Virus record (IMG/VR): IMGVR_UViG_3300035157_000557
Location: 1 to 26,478 of that record
DNA length: 26,478 nucleotides
Strand: one strand, 5' to 3'
Source: a virus
Shown piece after piece: positions 1 to 9,100 of this stretch. Every line of letters begins with the position of its first letter. Positions within the stretch are counted from its first letter, which is position 1. The notes under the pieces are model-generated. The model did no database searches. It saw nothing but the letters and a program-made list of their open reading frames with translations, and was not told where the DNA came from. Made by a program: the position numbers and the translations under genes.

Positions 1-199
1 ATCTCTGTACTTGTTTCTTATCAAGTCCAGCAAGTGCTTGACAGTTCTCCAAACAACGAAAGATACACTCTCTATCAGAGATAGGTGGAGCAATTTCCCA
101 CCCTTGCTCATCATAATACTTCTTACCTTTAGTGACTTGTGCCTCAACTTTATAAGCAGTATCTAATCTTTCATCTGGATTAGTGTAACTATGAGTCAT
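1..199 (-). CDS. Unknown small protein, C-terminus cut by window edge
   Basis: An open frame begins at an ATG whose first bases overlap the stop of the gene before it (ATGA at 199-196) and runs to the window edge without a stop, so 66 residues are visible and the C-terminus is missing. It starts MTHSYTNPDERL and is mixed in charge, with a GWEIAPP stretch in the middle and three Cys in the last third (CIFRCLENC). No signal peptide or membrane segment is seen. I do not recognise a family. Its place at the end of a chain of translationally coupled small genes suggests an accessory phage protein made with pyrE and the helicase. Confidence 0.65.
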   Translation of the reverse strand, partial: MTHSYTNPDERLDTAYKVEAQVTKGKKYYDEQGWEIAPPISDRECIFRCLENCQALAGLDKKQVQR

Positions 200-605: not shown

Positions 606-844
606 AATGGTTTACCGTTCTTATCAACTAATCCAAGTTTCTTTACCTCACCTAAATTAGATTTCTTTGCTTTTTTAATTCTTTTATACTCTTTAATAAT
701 CTTATTTACTTCACGCTGATCTATCTTAGCATTAAGTTTTTGACCTTTCTCACCAGCACCTTCCTTTTCTATGTAATCATTAATACCAATTTGAATGTCT
801 GCCTCTATAATGTCATTAATCTGTTTTCTAAGATTATCACTCAT
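602..844 (-). CDS. Unknown 80-aa lysine-rich protein
   Basis: I place the start at the ATG at 844-842 (MSDNLRKQIND), which gives 80 residues. The longer in-frame ORF from 901 would overlap the preceding gene by 65 bases, while the 844 start overlaps it by only 8 and has a purine-rich GGGGTAAGAGAG ribosome-binding stretch directly upstream. The protein is strongly basic in its second half (IIKEYKRIKKAKKSN) and probably mostly helical. That would fit nucleic-acid or membrane-surface binding, but this is only suggestive. No family is recognised. Confidence 0.68.
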   Translation of the reverse strand: MSDNLRKQINDIIEADIQIGINDYIEKEGAGEKGQKLNAKIDQREVNKIIKEYKRIKKAKKSNLGEVKKLGLVDKNGKPL

Positions 845-1148
845 CTCTCTTACCCCAGTTCTTATAGAAATCTTGTAGTGTTCCACCAAACAATGTCTCA
901 CTTATTTCACCTGCTGGTGTTGTAACTGTAGGAATTACAGCACTATTCTTCTTACCAAATGCTAATGGTGGATTATGAGGATTAGGCATTGATTGAACCA
1001 ACCTAATCACCTCATCTCTTATCTCCATTAACTCATGGAAACATTGCTGATTATGTGCACATCCCCTTAACTCATGGTCAGGTTTGTGTACGGATTCAAG
1101 GAATAAAGTTTTACCACGTTCCCACTTCTCTTGTTTAGTTTCATTCAT
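837..1148 (-). CDS. Unknown 103-aa protein
   Basis: A 103-residue soluble protein beginning MNETKQEKWERGKTLF. It has the pair GCAHNQQC in a His/Cys-rich stretch (about residues 23-38, with further His at 27 and 38). That could bind a metal, although only two Cys are present. A long probable helix follows (ELMEIRDEVIRLVQSM), then a Pro-rich turn. The start overlaps the preceding stop by 4 bases (ATGA). Function is unknown; the context is the small-gene tail of the pyrE operon. Confidence 0.7.
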   Translation of the reverse strand: MNETKQEKWERGKTLFLESVHKPDHELRGCAHNQQCFHELMEIRDEVIRLVQSMPNPHNPPLAFGKKNSAVIPTVTTPAGEISETLFGGTLQDFYKNWGKRDE

Positions 1149-1420
1149 AAAAACGGCTCCAATGATCCTTTCTTCTTGAGTTTCTTCTCAATAGAAATTT
1201 GTTTCTTTATGTAGGACATTGCATCCTTATAGTTTCTTGCGTGATGTACCTGTTCTCCATTGTGAATAATACACAACTGAGTGTCACTTCCCATAACTGG
1301 AACTGCTGCCCAAGTTCCATCTTTATTAACATATCCTTCAGGTTGTCCACCTTTAGGTGATAGTTTCTTTGGATTAGGGCAATGATAAAATCTGCGATAA
1401 TCTGAGGGTGTTCTACTCAT
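1145..1420 (-). CDS. Unknown 91-aa protein with EQVHHARNY motif
   Basis: This 91-residue basic protein starts MSRTPSDYRRFYHCPNPKKL and ends in a Lys-rich tail. Residues about 48-66 read LCIIHNGEQVHHARNYKDA. This resembles the core of the 46-aa protein at 2261-2401 (EQVHARDYQEA), so the two may share a short beta-strand/helix motif. Start and stop both overlap neighbours by 4 bases. No catalytic signature or membrane segment is seen and I do not recognise a named family. It is coupled in the same operon as pyrE. Confidence 0.7.
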   Translation of the reverse strand: MSRTPSDYRRFYHCPNPKKLSPKGGQPEGYVNKDGTWAAVPVMGSDTQLCIIHNGEQVHHARNYKDAMSYIKKQISIEKKLKKKGSLEPFL

Positions 1421-1680
1421 AGATGATACCCTGCTGATCTTCCTAGAGAATTAGATCCACCCTTCCATTCTTCTTTCTCATAATCAAAATCAGGATGAGG
1501 TGGTGAATTATACTTAGGTTCCTTAGATCTATTGTGAATTGCTATGAATTTATCATTTGCAAATGTACCACCTAGACATACCTCAATTTCATCACCATCC
1601 TTCCAATTAACCTCACCATTCATTTTGGTGTGTTGCATTAGTACTGCAATCTTGTTAATTACATCTTCAGTTAGTCTCAT
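1417..1680 (-). CDS. Unknown 87-aa protein
   Basis: An 87-residue frame starting MRLTEDVINKIAVLMQHTK. It follows pyrE directly, with a 4-base ATGA overlap at 1680-1677, and overlaps the next gene by 4 bases. The N-terminus is a probable helix. The middle has a Gly-rich CLGGTFANDKFIAIHNRSK segment that looks like beta strands, and the C-terminus is rich in Pro, Asp, Glu and Gly. It is soluble, with no recognised domain. Tight coupling to pyrE means equal expression but does not prove a role in pyrimidine synthesis. Confidence 0.7.
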   Translation of the reverse strand: MRLTEDVINKIAVLMQHTKMNGEVNWKDGDEIEVCLGGTFANDKFIAIHNRSKEPKYNSPPHPDFDYEKEEWKGGSNSLGRSAGYHL

Positions 1681-2258
1681 GTGTATAACTCCTCTAAAGA
1701 AAATAAACTAATAAGTTCACACTTAGCAGCAAGTACATTAGTATCTGCCTCACCATCTACTTGACGGTCAACTATGGTAATGATACGATTTACCTCATAA
1801 CCAGCATCACGCAACTTCTCTACTGCTATAATAGAAGATTTACCTGTAGTAGTTACATCCTCAACTACAACTACCTTAGATCCTTTTGGGGGCAATTTAC
1901 CCTCTATCCAAGCATTGACACCATAACCCTTTGGTTTCTTACGAACAATCAACCCAACTAAAGGTTCCTTTGGTACTTTATGAGCCCATGATATACAAGG
2001 TAAAGTAGATACTAAAGGATCAGCACCCAATGTAAGACCACCAACCGCTACAATATCATCTTCAATATATTCAAGCATCATAGCACAAACATAAGTTAAA
2101 CCCTTTCCAGTTAAGGTCATAGGTTTACAGTTTACATAATGCTCACTCTTACGCCCTGAAGATAATGTAAATTCACCTTTCCGATAACAATCTGTTTTTA
2201 GGATTTCTAAGACATGTTTCCTAAAATTGAATGTATCAGGTATATGTTCTAATATCAT
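1677..2258 (-). CDS. pyrE: Orotate phosphoribosyltransferase
   Basis: Makes orotidine 5'-monophosphate from orotate and PRPP, the fifth step of de novo pyrimidine synthesis, in the cytosol. The 193 residues match the usual length. Family signatures are in order: FTLSSGRKSEHYVNC (30-44), GGLTLGADPL (73-82), the catalytic loop RKKPKGYG (106-113) with Lys110 in the place of the essential lysine, and the PRPP-binding loop VVEDVTTTGKS (131-141). The enzyme normally works as a dimer with loops exchanged between subunits. It starts 2 bases after the preceding small gene and overlaps the next by 4, so it lies inside the helicase/methyltransferase operon. Inference: it raises UMP supply for phage DNA and RNA synthesis. 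A Tyr replaces the usual His in the catalytic loop, a conservative change. Confidence 0.93.
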   Translation of the reverse strand: MILEHIPDTFNFRKHVLEILKTDCYRKGEFTLSSGRKSEHYVNCKPMTLTGKGLTYVCAMMLEYIEDDIVAVGGLTLGADPLVSTLPCISWAHKVPKEPLVGLIVRKKPKGYGVNAWIEGKLPPKGSKVVVVEDVTTTGKSSIIAVEKLRDAGYEVNRIITIVDRQVDGEADTNVLAAKCELISLFSLEELYT

Positions 2259-2260
2259 TG

Positions 2261-2401
2261 TTAAAATACCGCATTAACTGAAATTACCCTAGCATTAGGG
2301 TTCCGAGCAAGAGCAACTTGTCTTGCTTCTTGATAGTCACGAGCATGTACCTGTTCATTAAAGACAGTACCAGCAACATAGAGTTTGACTTCGCAACGCA
2401 T
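2261..2401 (-). CDS. Conserved 46-aa phage protein
   Basis: Reading back from the ATG at 2401 gives 46 residues, beginning MRCEVKLYVAGTVFNEQVHA and ending RVISVNAVF, with TAA at 2261-2263. A strong AGGAG ribosome-binding site lies at 2412-2408, 6 bases before the ATG, which fixes the start. The predicted pattern is strand-helix-strand (VKLYVAG, then DYQEARQVALARNP, then ARVISVNAVF). I recall very similar small proteins in cyanomyoviruses, without known function. It sits between the methyltransferase and pyrE. Its EQVHARDY segment resembles one in the 91-aa protein at 1145-1420. Confidence 0.8.
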   Translation of the reverse strand: MRCEVKLYVAGTVFNEQVHARDYQEARQVALARNPNARVISVNAVF

Positions 2402-2424
2402 GGGGAGCTCCTGTAATTGTTCTT

Positions 2425-2453
2425 ATTATACTTTATTTAAAGCATCAAGTAAA
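2425..2453 (-). promoter_or_regulatory. Possible sigma70 promoter before the pyrE cluster
   Basis: On the minus strand TTTACT (2453-2448) and TATAAT (2430-2425) are separated by 17 bases, inside the end of the methyltransferase gene and overlapping its stop codon. The -10 is perfect and the -35 matches 4 of 6 consensus bases. The predicted start near 2418 would give a short leader carrying the AGGAG site of the 46-aa gene. In AT-rich sequence such matches arise by chance, so this is a moderate call. Confidence 0.4.
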
Positions 2454-3385
2454 GGTGAATGTGTCACTTCCGTAACTGGAGCATATTCCTTGACTCTCTT
2501 CTCAATCAAGTTACCATAATCCTCATGTAACTCACATCCAATGTAGTCTCTACCTAGCGATTTTGCCACAGCAGCAGTGGTTCCTGATCCCATGAATGGA
2601 TCTAATACAATATCACCTACCTCGCTCCCTGCTTTGATACAGGGTTCAATCAGGTCGGGTGGATAGGTAGCAAAATGTGCACCCTTATATGGTTTCTTTG
2701 TTACTGACCATACAGATCTCTTATTCTTAGTTGGATAACTTTTAGTTAAACCTGAGTGTGGAGTCTGTCCATAATCATTATTACTTGTGTACTTACCTTT
2801 ACTTCTATCTCTTGTACCCCAATCAGTAGCAGGTTCCTTGATTGCTTCATTATCATAGAAGTAATTCTTCTGTTTACTGAACAGGAAGATATATTCATGT
2901 GCCTTGGTACATCTATCTCTCACACTCTCAGGCATTGGATTAGGTTTATGCCATATAATATCCTGTCTCAAATGCCATCCATCTGCCCTCATAGCAAACG
3001 CAAACATCCAAGGGATACCAATAAGATCCTTCTCTTTCAATCCTTTTAACTTATTAGATCTTCTGGGTGTTGTTTCAGGTAGATCTTGCCTATTACTAGC
3101 AAATGTTTGCTTAGGAATACATCCATCCTTCCTGTAATTGTAATAACTATCACCTAAGTTTACCCAACAAGTTCCATCATCAGTAAGCACATTCCTTACT
3201 TCTCTGAATACTTTGACCAACTCATCAATAAACTCTTCGGGACTTTGCTCTTGTCCTATCTGTGATTCTTCACCACCATAATCTCTCAATCCATAGTAAG
3301 GTGGGGATGTAACACACATCCTTGCCTTCTCATCAAACTGTTTGAGTGTATCTCTACAATCTCCAAATAGAATTGTGTCTCTCAT
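2426..3385 (-). CDS. Beta-class DNA methyltransferase (N4-cytosine or N6-adenine)
   Basis: Transfers a methyl group from S-adenosylmethionine to an exocyclic amino group in DNA. At 319 residues it has the beta-class order: catalytic motif IV TSPPYYGLRDYG near the N-terminus (26-37) and SAM-binding motif I LDPFMGSGTT near the C-terminus (261-270), followed by GRDYIGCEL. A Ser/Thr-Pro-Pro-Tyr motif IV is commoner in N4-cytosine enzymes, but this does not prove the base. The target-recognition part is the stretch between the motifs. No restriction enzyme lies beside it, so protection of phage DNA from host nucleases or epigenetic marking is likely (inference). The start overlaps the preceding stop by 4 bases. 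Confidence 0.88.
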   Translation of the reverse strand: MRDTILFGDCRDTLKQFDEKARMCVTSPPYYGLRDYGGEESQIGQEQSPEEFIDELVKVFREVRNVLTDDGTCWVNLGDSYYNYRKDGCIPKQTFASNRQDLPETTPRRSNKLKGLKEKDLIGIPWMFAFAMRADGWHLRQDIIWHKPNPMPESVRDRCTKAHEYIFLFSKQKNYFYDNEAIKEPATDWGTRDRSKGKYTSNNDYGQTPHSGLTKSYPTKNKRSVWSVTKKPYKGAHFATYPPDLIEPCIKAGSEVGDIVLDPFMGSGTTAAVAKSLGRDYIGCELHEDYGNLIEKRVKEYAPVTEVTHSPLLDALNKV

Positions 3386-3918
3386 TGAATCCAGTTAGGT
3401 TTGCGTTCAGGTTTGCGTAGGTAATTATCCTTTACCCAAGGTTTAGAATTGATATACTTTTGATAAGCAGTAAAGGTATCAATAGTTCGATCCTTCTTAA
3501 ACTCATCAGGCATTGCCCTTGTAAAGTATTCTACCATACAATAACAAGTAATGACCTCACCTGCCATCTTATGAAATGTTTTCTTTGCTTCAAATAATGC
3601 TTTATGGCATCCATGTAATTTACCATAACGATAATTGTATTCATCAGATAAAGCACATCCATGTTGAATCAACCATGCTGTATTGTATATACTATTTGCT
3701 GCCCATTGAGTACAAGGATGATTCCTAAATGCTCCCTTGGCAACTGAGTAAGGTGTACCATCTTTCTTCTTAACTAAATCATCACCCCAATCATAATACC
3801 AATGAGAGAATACAATGGAAAGCATTTGACATGTTTCTAATGGCATCTTAACTACATGTTTATCAGGTAGTTCAGTAGCAGATTTATGAGGATCAGGATT
3901 AGTTACAAAGATATTCAT
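3382..3918 (-). CDS. Conserved phage protein with DKHVVKM signature
   Basis: A 178-residue soluble protein that I recognise as a recurrent phage family of unproven function. It opens MNIFVTNPDPHKSATELPDK, followed by HVVKMPLETCQMLS, then FRNHPCTQWAANSIYN (about 63-78), EYNYRYGKLHGCHKAL and a C-terminus rich in Trp, Pro and basic residues. The conserved Lys, His, Arg-Asn-His-Pro and Tyr-Arg-Tyr-Gly-Lys positions suggest an enzyme or nucleic-acid-binding protein. A distant link to the pyrimidine-dimer glycosylase (T4 DenV-like) fold is possible from the NHP layout, but I cannot support it by eye. It overlaps both the helicase and methyltransferase genes by 4 bases, so a role in DNA metabolism is reasonable. 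Confidence 0.78.
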   Translation of the reverse strand: MNIFVTNPDPHKSATELPDKHVVKMPLETCQMLSIVFSHWYYDWGDDLVKKKDGTPYSVAKGAFRNHPCTQWAANSIYNTAWLIQHGCALSDEYNYRYGKLHGCHKALFEAKKTFHKMAGEVITCYCMVEYFTRAMPDEFKKDRTIDTFTAYQKYINSKPWVKDNYLRKPERKPNWIQ

Positions 3919-5087
3919 CGTGTAATAACAGAAATAGCAGGTTCACCCCTGTTGAATACAGTATCTACAACTGCCTCAACCTTTCGGGCAGTAGAGATAC
4001 CAACATTATTATACACAGGAACACATACTTTGCCATGAGTTTTATCTACATTACCCAAACGAATTACTCTACCAATAGTTTGAGAGATAGTGATATAATC
4101 CATATTACGCATAAACAATGCTGCCTCTAATCCCTTTACGTTGATACCCTCTGCCAATATACTATGATGTAATACTACAAACTTCTTATCATCATCTTTA
4201 CCCCAAGCATTGAGAGTCTCAAAGAACTGATCTCTACCTACCTTCTTACCATCAATAATAGCACCTGTCTTAGCAGTAATATACATCCAACTATATCCAC
4301 GAACATTTAATTCATAACAAAAATCAGACTGAGATGTAAGACTAATGATTTGTTTGGTAGACTTAGCACAAATAAGAACCTTATCTACATCTAATCTATC
4401 AATAGCACTCAGCATTTGTTCTGATTCTACATCAGCAAAGATCTCATCTTTTCTAAGTAAACGACTCTTATACACCTCAACTTTAGGTGGTAGTATGTAT
4501 CCTTGATCTACTAACTTAGGTGCTGGTACATTAGCAATTACCTGACCATATACCTTGGTATCATTCATTCCAGCTTTGAAAGGAGTAGTACTATGCTTAG
4601 GAGTAGCAGTAAAGAAAAAGCACCTGTTAGAACCCACAGTTGCAAAATGTTCCACAGAAGGGAAAAAGTTTCGTTGAACACTATTATGTGCCTCATCAAA
4701 GTAAATTGTATCTACATCAATAGTAGAAGTTTTAACCTTCTCAAGTGAATGATAGGTAGTAAATATAATCTTATTACCTTCTGTCTTTTTATGCCATGAA
4801 TAAATGTCCCATATCTTAGTTGAAGAATAATGGGGTGTCTCACCACTGTGTACATGCATCACAGATACATTATCAATCTGTTCTAAGAACTCAGATGATA
4901 GTTGCTCTGCCAATAGTATGCGTGGTGCGACTACAACAATAGTGTCGGCAATAGTTGATCTAAAACGCTGTTCAGCATCATTAATCATACACATGGTCTT
5001 ACCACCACCTGTAGGGATGATGATCTGACCCTTAGAATGTTGAAACATTGCCTTAGTAGCATCAATCTGGTGTGGACGTAAAGGCAT
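3915..5087 (-). CDS. SF2 DEAH-box helicase (UvsW/type III restriction-like)
   Basis: An ATP-driven DNA or RNA translocase of superfamily 2. The 390 residues carry RPHQ (4-7), Walker A PTGGGKT (25-31), motif Ia VVVAPR (51-56), DEAH (131-134), motif III TATP (160-163), motif V LAEGINVKGLEAAL (311-324) and motif VI QTIGRVIR (336-343), so both RecA-like lobes are complete. It lacks the N-terminal extension of T4 UvsW, and little follows motif VI, making it a minimal helicase. Such phage helicases act in recombination, fork regression or R-loop removal; which applies here is inference. It is the first gene after the terminator at 5119-5137 and an extended -10 promoter, and heads the operon that includes the methyltransferase and pyrE. 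An alternative is a phage-borne restriction-type helicase. Confidence 0.88.
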   Translation of the reverse strand: MPLRPHQIDATKAMFQHSKGQIIIPTGGGKTMCMINDAEQRFRSTIADTIVVVAPRILLAEQLSSEFLEQIDNVSVMHVHSGETPHYSSTKIWDIYSWHKKTEGNKIIFTTYHSLEKVKTSTIDVDTIYFDEAHNSVQRNFFPSVEHFATVGSNRCFFFTATPKHSTTPFKAGMNDTKVYGQVIANVPAPKLVDQGYILPPKVEVYKSRLLRKDEIFADVESEQMLSAIDRLDVDKVLICAKSTKQIISLTSQSDFCYELNVRGYSWMYITAKTGAIIDGKKVGRDQFFETLNAWGKDDDKKFVVLHHSILAEGINVKGLEAALFMRNMDYITISQTIGRVIRLGNVDKTHGKVCVPVYNNVGISTARKVEAVVDTVFNRGEPAISVITR

Positions 5088-5108
5088 TAATGTTTCTCAG
5101 TTGAATAC

Positions 5109-5117
5109 ATTATAGCA
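5109..5117 (-). promoter_or_regulatory. Extended -10 promoter for the helicase operon
   Basis: The minus strand reads TGCTATAAT from 5117 to 5109, a perfect extended -10 element (TGnTATAAT). The first gene of the downstream operon starts at 5087. No good -35 is present, because that position falls in the terminator hairpin just upstream, but extended -10 promoters do not need one. The predicted start near 5102 gives a leader of about 15 bases. Confidence 0.6.
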
Positions 5118-5118
5118 T

Positions 5119-5137
5119 AAAAAACCCCCTTTAGGGG
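5119..5137 (-). terminator. Intrinsic terminator after the split methyltransferase
   Basis: On the minus strand CCCC-TAAA-GGGG folds into a short GC-rich hairpin (5137-5126) followed after one more G by six T (5124-5119), the form of a rho-independent terminator. It lies 12 bases after the stop of the motif I methyltransferase half and ends 2 bases before the extended -10 promoter of the helicase gene. It therefore separates two transcription units. Confidence 0.8.
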
Positions 5138-5148
5138 TGAGTGTGACA

Positions 5149-5550
5149 CTAAAAGAACTGTTCTACTCCTATAGGTTCCCCAAAACTATAGTCATACTCC
5201 AAAGCATCAGCACAGACATAGTGTGGATGATGTGTCGTTACACCCAACCTTCCACATAACTCCTTATGATTATCCTCCATGAGTTCGACAGCATATAACA
5301 TGTGATTCAATACATGCTTCTCACTATGATACAAACAGAGTCGTTCCTTTAGTCCAATTAAGAAATTGCCACAACCTGCTGAATTATCAATGAATTTACT
5401 GCTAGGATCTTTCAATAAAGAAACAGCAATCTCATCTATCATCAATTCTACCAACTCAGGGGGAGTGAATACCTCTTGAGTTTCTTTTATTCTCTCATCA
5501 GATCTTTCAACAGATGATCCTGATTTTATATTATGCTTATTCTTTTTCAT
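5149..5550 (-). CDS. DNA methyltransferase, SAM-binding (motif I) half
   Basis: 133 residues with the N-terminal part of a gamma-type N6-adenine methyltransferase: TQEVFTPPELVELMIDEI (about 24-41, motif X-like), FIDNSAGCGNFLIG (motif I, SAM-binding), YAVELMEDN (motif II acidic loop) and CADALEYDYSF (motif III). It ends at GVEQFF, just where the catalytic NPPY motif would follow, and has no motif IV. The gene transcribed just before it begins with exactly that missing part. Start and stop overlap by 14 bases (5537-5550). Inference: the two chains assemble into one enzyme. Alternatively this is a free-standing SAM-binding remnant. It shares a sigma70 promoter and a terminator with its partner. 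Confidence 0.8.
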   Translation of the reverse strand: MKKNKHNIKSGSSVERSDERIKETQEVFTPPELVELMIDEIAVSLLKDPSSKFIDNSAGCGNFLIGLKERLCLYHSEKHVLNHMLYAVELMEDNHKELCGRLGVTTHHPHYVCADALEYDYSFGEPIGVEQFF

Positions 5551-6112
5551 CTAAACATTGAATGTAAGTTGTTATTAAATCATTCTTACCAAAATGATAC
5601 CTACCATTAGTCTGTGTTGCTACCTCCCTAAATTTAGGAGCAAACTCTAGTAGATTCTTAATTACTTCAGGTGATTTAACATTTAGAAAGTGATGTCCTT
5701 TAGCGTAGTGTGTAAAGTTCTCAGTCTTTACTACTCCACTAGGTCCACATCCATACTCACCAACAAAAACATCTGCCTCGAACCTATCTTTATAATCGAG
5801 AAACTCAAAATCTGGATGCTCGGTGTGCATAGGAATCTCGTTCACTCCTACTTCAAATCTCGAAGAGTTCTTTACCTTCCAATACTGTTTGACAGCACTA
5901 ATACCACCAGGAAATGTAGCATGATCGAGATCATCATCAACTTCACAGTGAAGATATGACTTGATTTTATTCTGAGAGGAAGGTTTTCTTACAGAAGTAG
6001 GCAATACAAACCTAATATCATCTGTAATCTCGGACGTTTTATTTAAAAACTTTATAGCAAGATTCCCTCCTACACCATAAGGAGGATTTCCTATAGCAAG
6101 AGTAAATTTCAT
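5537..6112 (-). CDS. DNA adenine methyltransferase, catalytic (NPPY) half
   Basis: 191 residues opening MKFTLAIGNPPYGVGGNLA, so the catalytic motif IV NPPYG (residues 9-13), which holds the flipped adenine, comes at once. FVLPTSVRKPSSQNKI (35-50) follows, a segment I associate with N6-adenine methyltransferases, then a likely target-recognition part. There is no motif I anywhere; it is supplied by the next gene. The start must be this first Met, since no other Met precedes NPPY. A consensus sigma70 promoter ends 6 bases upstream, placing the predicted transcript start at or beside the ATG, and no Shine-Dalgarno is seen. The pair could mark or protect phage DNA. The low-risk statement is a class I methyltransferase fragment. 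Confidence 0.82.
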   Translation of the reverse strand: MKFTLAIGNPPYGVGGNLAIKFLNKTSEITDDIRFVLPTSVRKPSSQNKIKSYLHCEVDDDLDHATFPGGISAVKQYWKVKNSSRFEVGVNEIPMHTEHPDFEFLDYKDRFEADVFVGEYGCGPSGVVKTENFTHYAKGHHFLNVKSPEVIKNLLEFAPKFREVATQTNGRYHFGKNDLITTYIQCLDEKE

Positions 6113-6118
6113 AATAAA

Positions 6119-6147
6119 ATTATAACAACAATCTCGAACAGTGTCAA
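6119..6147 (-). promoter_or_regulatory. Consensus sigma70 promoter for the split methyltransferase
   Basis: The minus strand carries TTGACA (6147-6142), 17 bases, then TATAAT (6124-6119): a perfect match to the bacterial housekeeping consensus at the optimal spacing. It fills the 38-base gap between the 1059-aa structural gene and the NPPY gene, whose ATG starts only 6 bases after the -10. This points to transcription by unmodified host RNA polymerase, probably early in infection. Confidence 0.85.
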
Positions 6148-6150
6148 GTT

Positions 6151-9100
6151 CTAATTAATAGTCATTTTCTTTGTGGCACTTCCAGCAGGATTACTTGCGA
6201 TAAACTCATACTCCATAGGACCATTATTATTAGGAGAAGGTTTAATAGTAAATGAAGCAGAAGCCGTATTAAGAGTACCTTGAGAAACACTATCATCAGA
6301 TCTAAATGCTATGGGAGTTCCTTTTTCAGGATTATTGGGAGTAGTCTGAGTAGTGTTATTAGCCCAGATACCAGTATCACTGCCATTACCACTCTGATCA
6401 TAAGCAACATAAGAATAATGTAATAATTGTTGTTCTTTAGATAATGATTGGCATTGAACTTGATGTAGTGGATTACTACTATTAGGTAATATATTTGAAG
6501 CACTACAAGTTATGGTAGGTGAACCATAAACATAAGGTTGATTACTAACCAAATCAGTTGAACGTGCTATAACATTACCACTAGGATCATATACCGCAAA
6601 AGCAACACCAGAAGGGTTATGTCCATAATTCCAGTTCTTATAGCGATCACTAGGTTGTGCACCAGCAGCTATTGCTGCCTCTTCTGCCTCCATCTCTGCA
6701 GTAGTAGGTTGACTAAAATTATCAATCCAATTATAAACAACAGCAGGATTAGCACCAGGAGTTACTGTATATGGTGGATCTTTTAATTGATGTGAGTTTG
6801 TTAAAGTAAACTCTAATGTCTTTTGTCCAACTTGAGCAGCAGTAAGAGTTATCTGGAAATAAGTTGGTCCCATATTATATGCACCATTAGCAGCAGGTCC
6901 TTCAGGAGCCCACGTATTGTTACTAGAATTTAAATCCGCATTTGCCCCACCCTCTGAAGTAAATGGCCAAATACGACCCTTCTCAGTAAATCCAGCAGGT
7001 GCTGCACCAAATCCCCAACTAGAACCAGAACTAAAGAATTTTGGAGTAACAAAAGTTTCAGATGGGAAATTACCACCTGTCCATTTAAATACACATCCAT
7101 TATCTGACGCTGCTTTAACAGTATAGGTTCCTGCAACACTAGCATTGAAAGTCACAGAACCTGTTTGTTCAAGTAGATTTTGTGTTTTTGTATTAGATGT
7201 GGTAATAGCACCACTCTTCAAGAATTGTGACCAATTTGATTCCATACCAATAGATCTAACCTCTTTATTATCATAGGATTTAACCCAAGGTTGATCAGTA
7301 TATGTTATACCTGGTTCATAGTGAGTGGATTGTTTGGGTGGTATTATAGAAATAATTTGGTTTATATCAACACCACCATCATCAACTAATTGAATTGTTT
7401 GGTCATTATGTAAAAATGTTTGCCATCCTTGACCAGTAGACCTTTGCTGTGGAGCATTATATTTTGATAGTCCATTTAAATCATTAGGATCTAGAGCTTC
7501 TTTATTACGCTCAGATAAACCATACCACTCTATAGGGTATATACCAGTACCTAATCCAATATCAGGACCAGTGTCATCTGGATATTGACCGCCATTATTT
7601 GGAGGACCTTCATATTCCCCACTAGTACCATATCTTCCAGAGTCATATACTATTGATTTAGGATTATTATGAGGGAGATTTGGATCTCTTATTCTAAATC
7701 TCCATAATGCTACATCATCTATATTCCTTCTATCAGACCATCTATGCCATATTCTGAACCAAACCTTATCAGTATTATTAGCTTGTTTAAACTTAGTAGC
7801 ATCAGTAGGATCTAAACGAGTTACCATTAAATGAGTTGCTGGTTTATTAAACCTAACATGACATGCATTATGTCCAGCAGATTGATTTACAGTTAATGCC
7901 AATCCTGGTGGTGAACCTGGATCTATAGGATCTGCTTCCTCACCAGCACAATTTGTATTTTTTGGTCCTTTAATATTAGCAGCCCCTGTAGATCCAGTAG
8001 CAGGGAAATAATTCTTTCCACAAATAGAAGGTCCAGATTTACCACCACCTTCTCCTTGATCTAATCCAGTTGAACTAGGACTTAATCCAGTAGTAGATCC
8101 TCCTGTAGCACCCCAATCACCACCATCACCACCCTTTCCACCTGGTCCAGAACACTCACCACCAGGATTCGCAGCAGTTCCAGCAGGACATGTTGGACAA
8201 GCAGCAGCACCTGGATCAGTTCCTGCCTGACCATTTGTTTTAGATTGTGTATATCCTTTTCCATTACCACCTCGCCCACCTCTACCTTGAACAGGGGCAT
8301 CACCTTGCTGACTATAAATATCCTCATGATAACAATAAGCAGAACCTAATTCTCCATCTAAAGTACCATCACATTCAGGATCACAACAATCTATTCCAAA
8401 GAACCATGTTTGTTGTATTACTCTATCAGACCCACATGAATTCTGAATAGTTTGTCCATTACAAGTATTAAAAAATCCACCAAAATAATAATAACTATTA
8501 TCTGCATAACAATTTGCTCTCATCGCATCTAATCCAGCTGGATTAACATATCCATGCTTACCTTGTTCTCCACCTCCTCCACCACCAAATATATATCCCG
8601 TATTATTAATAATTGTCTTAGATTCAGAACCCTCATGCCAAATCTTTAATGCTATTCCACCATCTTTACCTGGATCACTCTTATCTAATGGTGTAGTTCC
8701 ATCAGGGAAAAATCCACCCAAACCACCTGCACCATGAATATTTCCACTATTTTTAATAGTGACATTTATTGCTTTAAGTGGGTTGGGAAGTTCTAATTTA
8801 GCAGCAGGTTTTTTCTGTGCACCGACACCACCACTACCAGCCGTTCCATCAACACCAGTATCAGTTGAACCACAAGTTCCAGTTATTCTTATTTCTTTGT
8901 AGATATTTCTTGTTATATTTCCAGTTACAGATCCTACAGCATCAGCAACCCCTTGACCATCCCAATCAATACCTTTACTACCACTAGCAGTAAATAATCC
9001 CATCTCAAAATTAACATCAGTTCCTGACTGAGTAGCAAAATATCTCTTGATAGAATTCCTCATCAAAGATGCTTTCCAATTGGTTCCTGTACCTTTAAAT

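Follow-up and report, generated by a model that had tools for sequence, protein, structure and literature searches.

A cyanophage gene pair that probably encodes a two-chain gamma-type DNA adenine methyltransferase

Introduction

Two overlapping genes of a marine cyanophage raise the question of whether a DNA methyltransferase can be divided between its cofactor site and its catalytic site and still be an enzyme. They lie in a 26 kb piece of a T4-like marine cyanophage near the Prochlorococcus phages P-SSM2 and P-SSM5 (26,478 nucleotides; IMG/VR record IMGVR_UViG_3300035157_000557), and this whole stretch is referred to below as the window. A sequence-only reading had noticed that the first gene opens at the catalytic motif IV and has no motif I, that the second carries motifs X, I, II and III and stops before NPPY would come, and that the catalytic half precedes the S-adenosylmethionine (SAM) half with a 14-base overlap; it took the arrangement for a circular permutation coupled to a gene split that could function only as a two-chain enzyme. 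The papers searched gave no biochemical or methylome data. Our bioinformatic analysis suggests that the pair is very probably a two-chain gamma-type DNA N6-adenine methyltransferase, and that across related viruses its SAM chain probably acts in trans with different catalytic chains.

Organization of the gene pair

The anatomy given by the sequence-only reading, namely the motif content of each gene, the order of the halves and the overlap, was confirmed (Table 1). The SAM half ends in GEPIGVEQFF, its stop falling where NPPY would come, and motifs X, I and II are near-invariant across the SAM-half alignment. The overlap probably serves translational coupling.

Table 1. Coordinates of the putative methyltransferase subunits and their motifs in the window.
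Feature	Position	Strand	Description
Catalytic subunit gene	5537..6112	-	191 aa; ORF; opens at motif IV, MKFTLAIGNPPYG; motifs X, I, II and III absent
Catalytic subunit, layout	5537..6112	-	NPPY, then second half of the methyltransferase fold, then C-terminal target-recognition-like region
Motif IV, NPPY	6077..6088	-	Catalytic subunit residues 9-12; N9, P11 and G13 near-invariant in catalytic-half alignments
SAM-binding subunit gene	5149..5550	-	133 aa; ORF; motifs X, I, II and III; ends ahead of motif IV
Motif X, EVFTP (within QEVFTP)	5461..5475	-	SAM subunit residues 26-30; near-invariant in SAM-half alignment
Motif I, FIDNSAGCGNF	5362..5394	-	SAM subunit residues 53-63; F53, D55, A58, G59, G61, N62 and F63 invariant in SAM-half alignment
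Motif II, YAVE	5284..5295	-	SAM subunit residues 86-89; Y86, V88 and E89 invariant in SAM-half alignment
Motif III, DAL (within ADAL)	5200..5208	-	SAM subunit residues 115-117; A116 invariant, followed by near-invariant YDYSFG
Overlap of both genes	5537..5550	-	14 nt; ATG of the SAM gene lies within the end of the catalytic gene

Two simpler accounts of the gene structure were considered. A missed upstream start might have supplied the catalytic half with a SAM part of its own; this was rejected, as the preceding gene stops at 6151, 38 nt away, no in-frame upstream part of the catalytic half was found in the 5' region up to that stop, and the relatives of the window type mostly open at residue NPPY minus 8. 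A programmed frameshift might have produced a fused protein, and the SAM frame does lie at +1 to the catalytic frame over the whole length; a slippery site, on the other hand, was not recognised, which makes this account less likely.

Downstream of the pair, the minus strand (2426-5087) encodes an SF2 helicase (3915-5087), a pyrimidine-dimer-glycosylase-like protein (3382-3918) and an SPPY methyltransferase, possibly an N4-cytosine enzyme (2426-3385).

Relationship to single-chain methyltransferases

The two halves match complementary parts of single-chain enzymes. The catalytic half matches positions 92-283 of 377 in phrog_5172 (6e-69), and the SAM half matches positions 1-133 of 134 in phrog_4376 (4e-72). 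In Pfam, the SAM half falls on positions 21-88 of 311 of N6_Mtase with 19.1 bits, just under the cut-off of 20.4, and the catalytic half gave no match. When the profiles were aligned by hhalign with a family of single-chain phage gamma methyltransferases (Escherichia FV3 and ukendt, Pseudomonas KIL1, Xanthomonas XbC2 and contig L178), the catalytic profile covered columns 83-267 of 277 (P 99.6, E 3e-24) and the SAM profile, more weakly, columns 11-56 (P 63); the match of the SAM profile to the front of another gamma family is stronger (P 95.9). The front of the PADLOC Type II methyltransferase models is matched by the SAM half and the back, from about 80-107, by the catalytic half, and among solved structures the SAM profile matches residues 28-84 of CamA (E 0.0012). 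Because the halves map to complementary parts of the same single-chain families, the case in which each half belongs to a different complete family did not hold. By motif content and homology neither half is a complete enzyme, and the claim that the pair could work only as two chains agrees well with what appears to be a gamma-class enzyme divided between motifs III and IV.

As for the class, the SAM chain has motif X (FTP) ahead of a GxG-containing motif I, and the catalytic chain has the NPP(Y/F/W) of gamma-class enzymes as NPPY at residues 9-12. The gamma order of I - IV - target region on one chain is absent, since motif IV and the target region come first and on a separate chain. The beta-class order of IV - target region - I holds only across the two genes, and the structural and profile relatives found are gamma-class.

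The AF2 model of the catalytic half (pLDDT 91) predicts four central strands (residues 6-8, 32-38, 54-61 and 73-80) with helices, followed by a C-terminal region. Residues 1-191 were placed by VIA-align on residues 97-408 of M.TaqI (Z 7.5, 177 aligned) and the same half on CamA 157-535 (Z 7.4), a Z of about 7.5 being middling by the tool's own warning; BrxX, MmeI and M.BseCI are also among the matches listed. Since the aromatic residue of motif IV in TaqI is given as residue 108 (PMC3874165), the start of the alignment puts the NPPY of the window (9-12) on TaqI 105-108. Foldseek alone gave a best E of about 0.01-0.015 for the catalytic half. Because the Z is middling and the Foldseek match weak, the fold supports the case and does not carry it; the structural argument rests on the matching register of the predicted model together with the profile matches.

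Conservation and selection

P-SSM2 and P-SSM5 carry the pair at 92-93% identity, and the same order recurs in about 80 IMG/VR contigs, with overlaps of 11-56 nt (79 relatives). Between the window and P-SSM2, dN is 0.04-0.05 and dS 0.5-1.1, giving a dN/dS of about 0.05-0.1 for both genes; the dN and dS of the pair resemble those of the adjacent SPPY methyltransferase gene. Judged from these substitutions, both genes are under purifying selection. The copies in P-SSM2 and P-SSM5, the roughly 80 contigs, the low dN relative to dS and the near-invariant motifs indicate that the pair is neither chance nor decay.

These data bear on the possibility that the enzyme is dead, the halves being remnants of a broken methyltransferase that persist as passengers or as DNA-binding proteins that do not methylate. 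Such a view would fit the missing Pfam match of the catalytic half and the annotation of both P-SSM2 genes (PSSM2_036 and PSSM2_037) as hypothetical, but it is highly improbable in the face of the low dN/dS on both genes, the conservation of both the catalytic and the SAM motifs and the recurrence of the pair across many virus groups; moreover, a frame-broken gene would give the ordinary order and not swapped halves. Frameshift fission of an ordinary gamma enzyme was rejected as a source of the pair, as its halves would keep their original order.

A scan of bacterial genomes with two strict patterns returned one contig only, PAHT02000089.1 (L091), filed as Rhodobacteraceae. This contig resembles a viral fragment of the cyanophage type, with a SAM half and T4-like-phage-type helicase and pyrimidine-dimer genes matching those of the window; its SAM half has a different catalytic partner and is followed directly by a helicase of the window's kind.

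Catalytic partners of the SAM half

Scans of viral contigs yielded 349 standalone SAM-half ORFs, and an NPPY protein lies within 700 nt on the same strand for 286 of the 349. Nearly all of the unique partners (207 of 211) are upstream of the SAM half. Among SAM halves without an NPPY partner, 31 are at contig ends and most others adjoin a looser motif IV variant missed by the pattern. In the reverse test, with the catalytic half as seed, the SAM gene is adjacent in 79 of 80 window-type contigs, the 80th lying at a contig edge.

The partners are diverse in size, comprising NPPY-first proteins of about 190 aa (the window type) and proteins of 240-260 aa, 370-480 aa and 1,040-1,180 aa, the largest having a helicase-like part followed by a methyltransferase part. 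They also differ in the front half, that is, the SAM-binding part that would precede NPPY. It is absent from 77 of the 211 unique partners, which start at NPPY; in about 110 the front half is present but its motif I departs from the canonical form (GDPxGxHS, VPxDAxGxF, FDAGCVIAIT and the like); and about 19 have an intact motif I of their own, a status that was called by regular expression, with about 6 of 25 'intact' calls being false (L124, L109, L113, L336, L006 and L322). These roughly 19 partners imply that an adjoining SAM half is not always needed by its partner. At least four divergent catalytic families include NPPY-first members, and among catalytic proteins 70-77% identical to that of the window some have a 65-aa front half (L058, L081 and L250) and others none; the front half, present in some close relatives and missing in others, thus appears dispensable.

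Several features of individual partners deserve mention. In L058, L081, L250, L219 and their relatives, a conserved GDPxGxHS ... VWE stands before NPPY in place of the SAM GxG motif, and this front half may owe its form to repurposing as a ligand site and not to decay. The enzyme is also split in Klebsiella phage KpV477 and Vibrio phage phi-ST2, where the catalytic chain bears a GIY-YIG domain. In L311 (IMG/VR, 818-6492) and L271/L289, a single standalone SAM half comes after a tandem array of three or four gamma methyltransferases, each about 360-390 aa long, the last of which retains an intact motif I. A protein of 187-204 aa recurs beside the SAM/catalytic pair (L005 3439-4002, which is Bellamy 87; L093 2781-3383; L104 1282-1893); the Bellamy copy has no Pfam match, and the protein is possibly a further component, perhaps a nuclease.

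Distant catalytic proteins in cyanophage ACG-2014f

In Synechococcus phage ACG-2014f the SAM gene lies near 36 kb, and the six genomes searched in full each have a single copy. In 14 records it stands beside a cassette of a 200-aa protein, a 393-aa methyltransferase-like protein and a helicase (cassette A), and in two records beside a helicase and a window-type catalytic protein (cassette B); neither cassette adjoins it in US4, C7, US44 and US36. A 301-aa NPPY-first protein, encoded near 134-140 kb and so about 100 kb from the SAM gene, is present in exactly the 26 SAM-positive ACG-2014f records and absent from every other phage record, and seven of the 26 have a 248-aa NPPY-first protein in addition. 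In US44, US36 and C24, positions 20-90 of Pfam N6_Mtase are matched by the SAM gene and positions 121-238 by an NPPY-first protein of the 248-aa type near 136 kb. From this gene content, the SAM gene is apparently common to other, non-adjacent catalytic proteins. At least 14 further records named ACG-2014f lack both the SAM and the 301-aa genes; since these may be one separate lineage, the co-occurrence is to be read as an association and possibly as a single lineage effect.

Two related arrangements were observed in cyanophages. The C-terminal target-region-like segment of the catalytic subunit (HPDFEFV ...) is present twice in tandem in one ACG-2014f protein (Syn7803C24_53; L003 4821-5834), and Synechococcus phage S-CAM7 (KU686213.1) has two SAM-half genes, at 45121 and 52037, each by a different catalytic or helicase cassette.

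The SAM half could also be a separate SAM-binding or regulatory protein, such as a SAM sensor or an anti-restriction factor, whose only tie to NPPY proteins would be co-transcription, with no part in completing their active site. This explanation would fit the partners that still have a complete motif I (L271, L345, L311 and others) and the ACG-2014f genomes with no NPPY gene beside the SAM gene. We consider it quite improbable, because the window-type catalytic halves have no SAM site and yet are accompanied by the SAM gene in all but one of their contigs, because both pieces are fused in Aeromonas phages (see below), and because the ACG-2014f genomes that lack a neighbouring NPPY gene still hold an NPPY-first protein elsewhere.

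Origin of the gene order

The search for single-chain homologues spanning both halves, which the sequence-only reading had called for, recovered permuted proteins from Aeromonas phages as well as the phage gamma enzymes of ordinary order. In Aeromonas phages CC2, 65, Aeh1, Ah1 and others, one protein of 383-415 aa starts at NPPY and has the SAM half at its end: the catalytic profile aligns with columns 1-49 at the N-terminus (P 95) and the SAM profile with columns 280-367 at the C-terminus (P 98.8). Going by these alignments, the Aeromonas proteins are a true one-chain circular permutation with the same order as the window pair, so the window's order is found in nature as one protein. The pair itself is not of this one-chain type (phrog_11371), being two genes, although both of its halves are homologous to phrog_11371 and stand in the same order. 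The AF2 model of the Aeromonas protein (7 sequences) was unusable (pLDDT 49, pTM 0.39). In the protein of Aeromonas phage 65 (L282 2986-4146), residues from about 247 to 285 read, relative to CC2, as another frame, a pattern that two frameshifts compensating each other would give. Iyer et al. 2021 (PMC7824862) devote one phrase to a permuted M.EcoKI-like clade in jumbo phages; APU01582.1, the example cited for this clade, has the ordinary order, and the clade is likely to be the Aeromonas-type proteins.

The existence of permuted one-chain enzymes in related T4-like phages, together with that mention of a jumbo-phage clade, suggests a history in which a one-chain NPPY-TRD-X-I-II-III enzyme arose first and was later split, in which case the pair would simply be a permuted enzyme broken in two, its partner fixed. 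This scenario concerns origin and is compatible with two-chain function. It is unlikely in our view, as many partners keep a front half before NPPY, usually with a variant motif I, which fits loss of the front in cis after a SAM chain in trans had taken over rather than fission of a permuted chain, and as widely varying catalytic families stand beside a conserved SAM chain. Since some lineages of catalytic partners retain a variant front and several others have lost it, the order need not stem from a permuted one-chain ancestor. The earlier interpretation therefore survives in part: a permuted one-chain form does exist in Aeromonas phages, but a standalone SAM subunit that acts in trans appears, from the comparison of relatives, to account for the window pair better than permutation plus splitting does, and 'circular permutation' is here only a description of the gene order.

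Proposed mechanism and comparison with known systems

It is proposed that the 133-aa chain, with motifs X, I, II and III, forms the front half of a Rossmann methyltransferase domain and would hold S-adenosylmethionine, whereas the back half, which carries the NPPY pocket for catalysis, would come from the 191-aa chain, whose C-terminal region would touch the target DNA. The chains would meet where the fold is broken, between motif III and the NPPY strand, with the SAM chain docking on the NPPY edge strand and completing the Rossmann sheet, a junction that gamma enzymes make between motifs III and IV across a single loop. The complex would methylate adenine in phage DNA, most likely as a guard against restriction enzymes; adenine rather than cytosine is expected because of the NPPY motif and the gamma relatives, NPPY in a gamma-class enzyme favouring adenine (PMC3874165). 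The SAM chain would be the constant part across the wider virus group, usually encoded as the downstream neighbour of the catalytic chain, and at least one catalytic chain of ACG-2014f would be encoded about 100 kb from it. A phage could then alter specificity by swapping the catalytic gene alone.

Permuted and split methyltransferases are already known; a division of labour between a SAM subunit and a catalytic subunit was not found described. Gamma-class enzymes (M.TaqI, CamA, HsdM of M.EcoKI and the Eco57I type) share with the pair motif X/FTP, motif I, NPPY, the register of the catalytic fold and the SAM-half profile matches, but the window has two chains, the catalytic half first, with the SAM and catalytic sites on separate proteins. 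The permuted M.EcoKI-like Dam of jumbo phages and the Aeromonas one-chain proteins have the order IV - target region - X - I - II - III in common with the pair, yet they are single chains and provide no separate, shareable SAM subunit. M.AquI and M.EcoHK31I are naturally two-chain cytosine-5 methyltransferases (PMC3404938) and thus also use two polypeptides for one methyltransferase; in contrast to the pair, they belong to the C5 class, are broken near the variable region or at motif IX, keep motifs I and IV in one chain and in the ordinary order, and are not shared. M.BssHII and M.Esp3I, which are naturally permuted C5 methyltransferases (PMC5944983), resemble the pair in a changed motif order with function kept and differ in being one-chain C5 enzymes with a break in the variable region.

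For the sharing itself, we lean towards the view that one small SAM subunit without a catalytic site is common to several catalytic/target-recognition subunits whose own SAM site is lost or degenerate, so that a half-enzyme cassette would suffice for a new specificity. In type I restriction-modification (M2S) enzymes, HsdM is common to exchangeable HsdS subunits, and the pair would be analogous in having a constant subunit with exchangeable specificity subunits. The difference is that HsdM has both the SAM and the NPPY sites, whereas here the constant chain would have the SAM site only and the exchangeable chain would bear NPPY in addition to specificity.

The two-chain reading is well supported, and the shared-subunit reading is its novel part. 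If true, they would serve as a warning for annotation that NPPY proteins without motif I are not necessarily dead, and would assign a function to genes now called 'hypothetical', of which cyanophages and large environmental phages have hundreds. They would also make available, for targeted DNA modification, a methyltransferase that occurs naturally as two genetically separable parts. A Rossmann methyltransferase would be divisible in nature exactly between its cofactor and catalytic sites, the cofactor half being able to turn into a common subunit, and phages would have a cheap route to change their methylation specificity and evade restriction.
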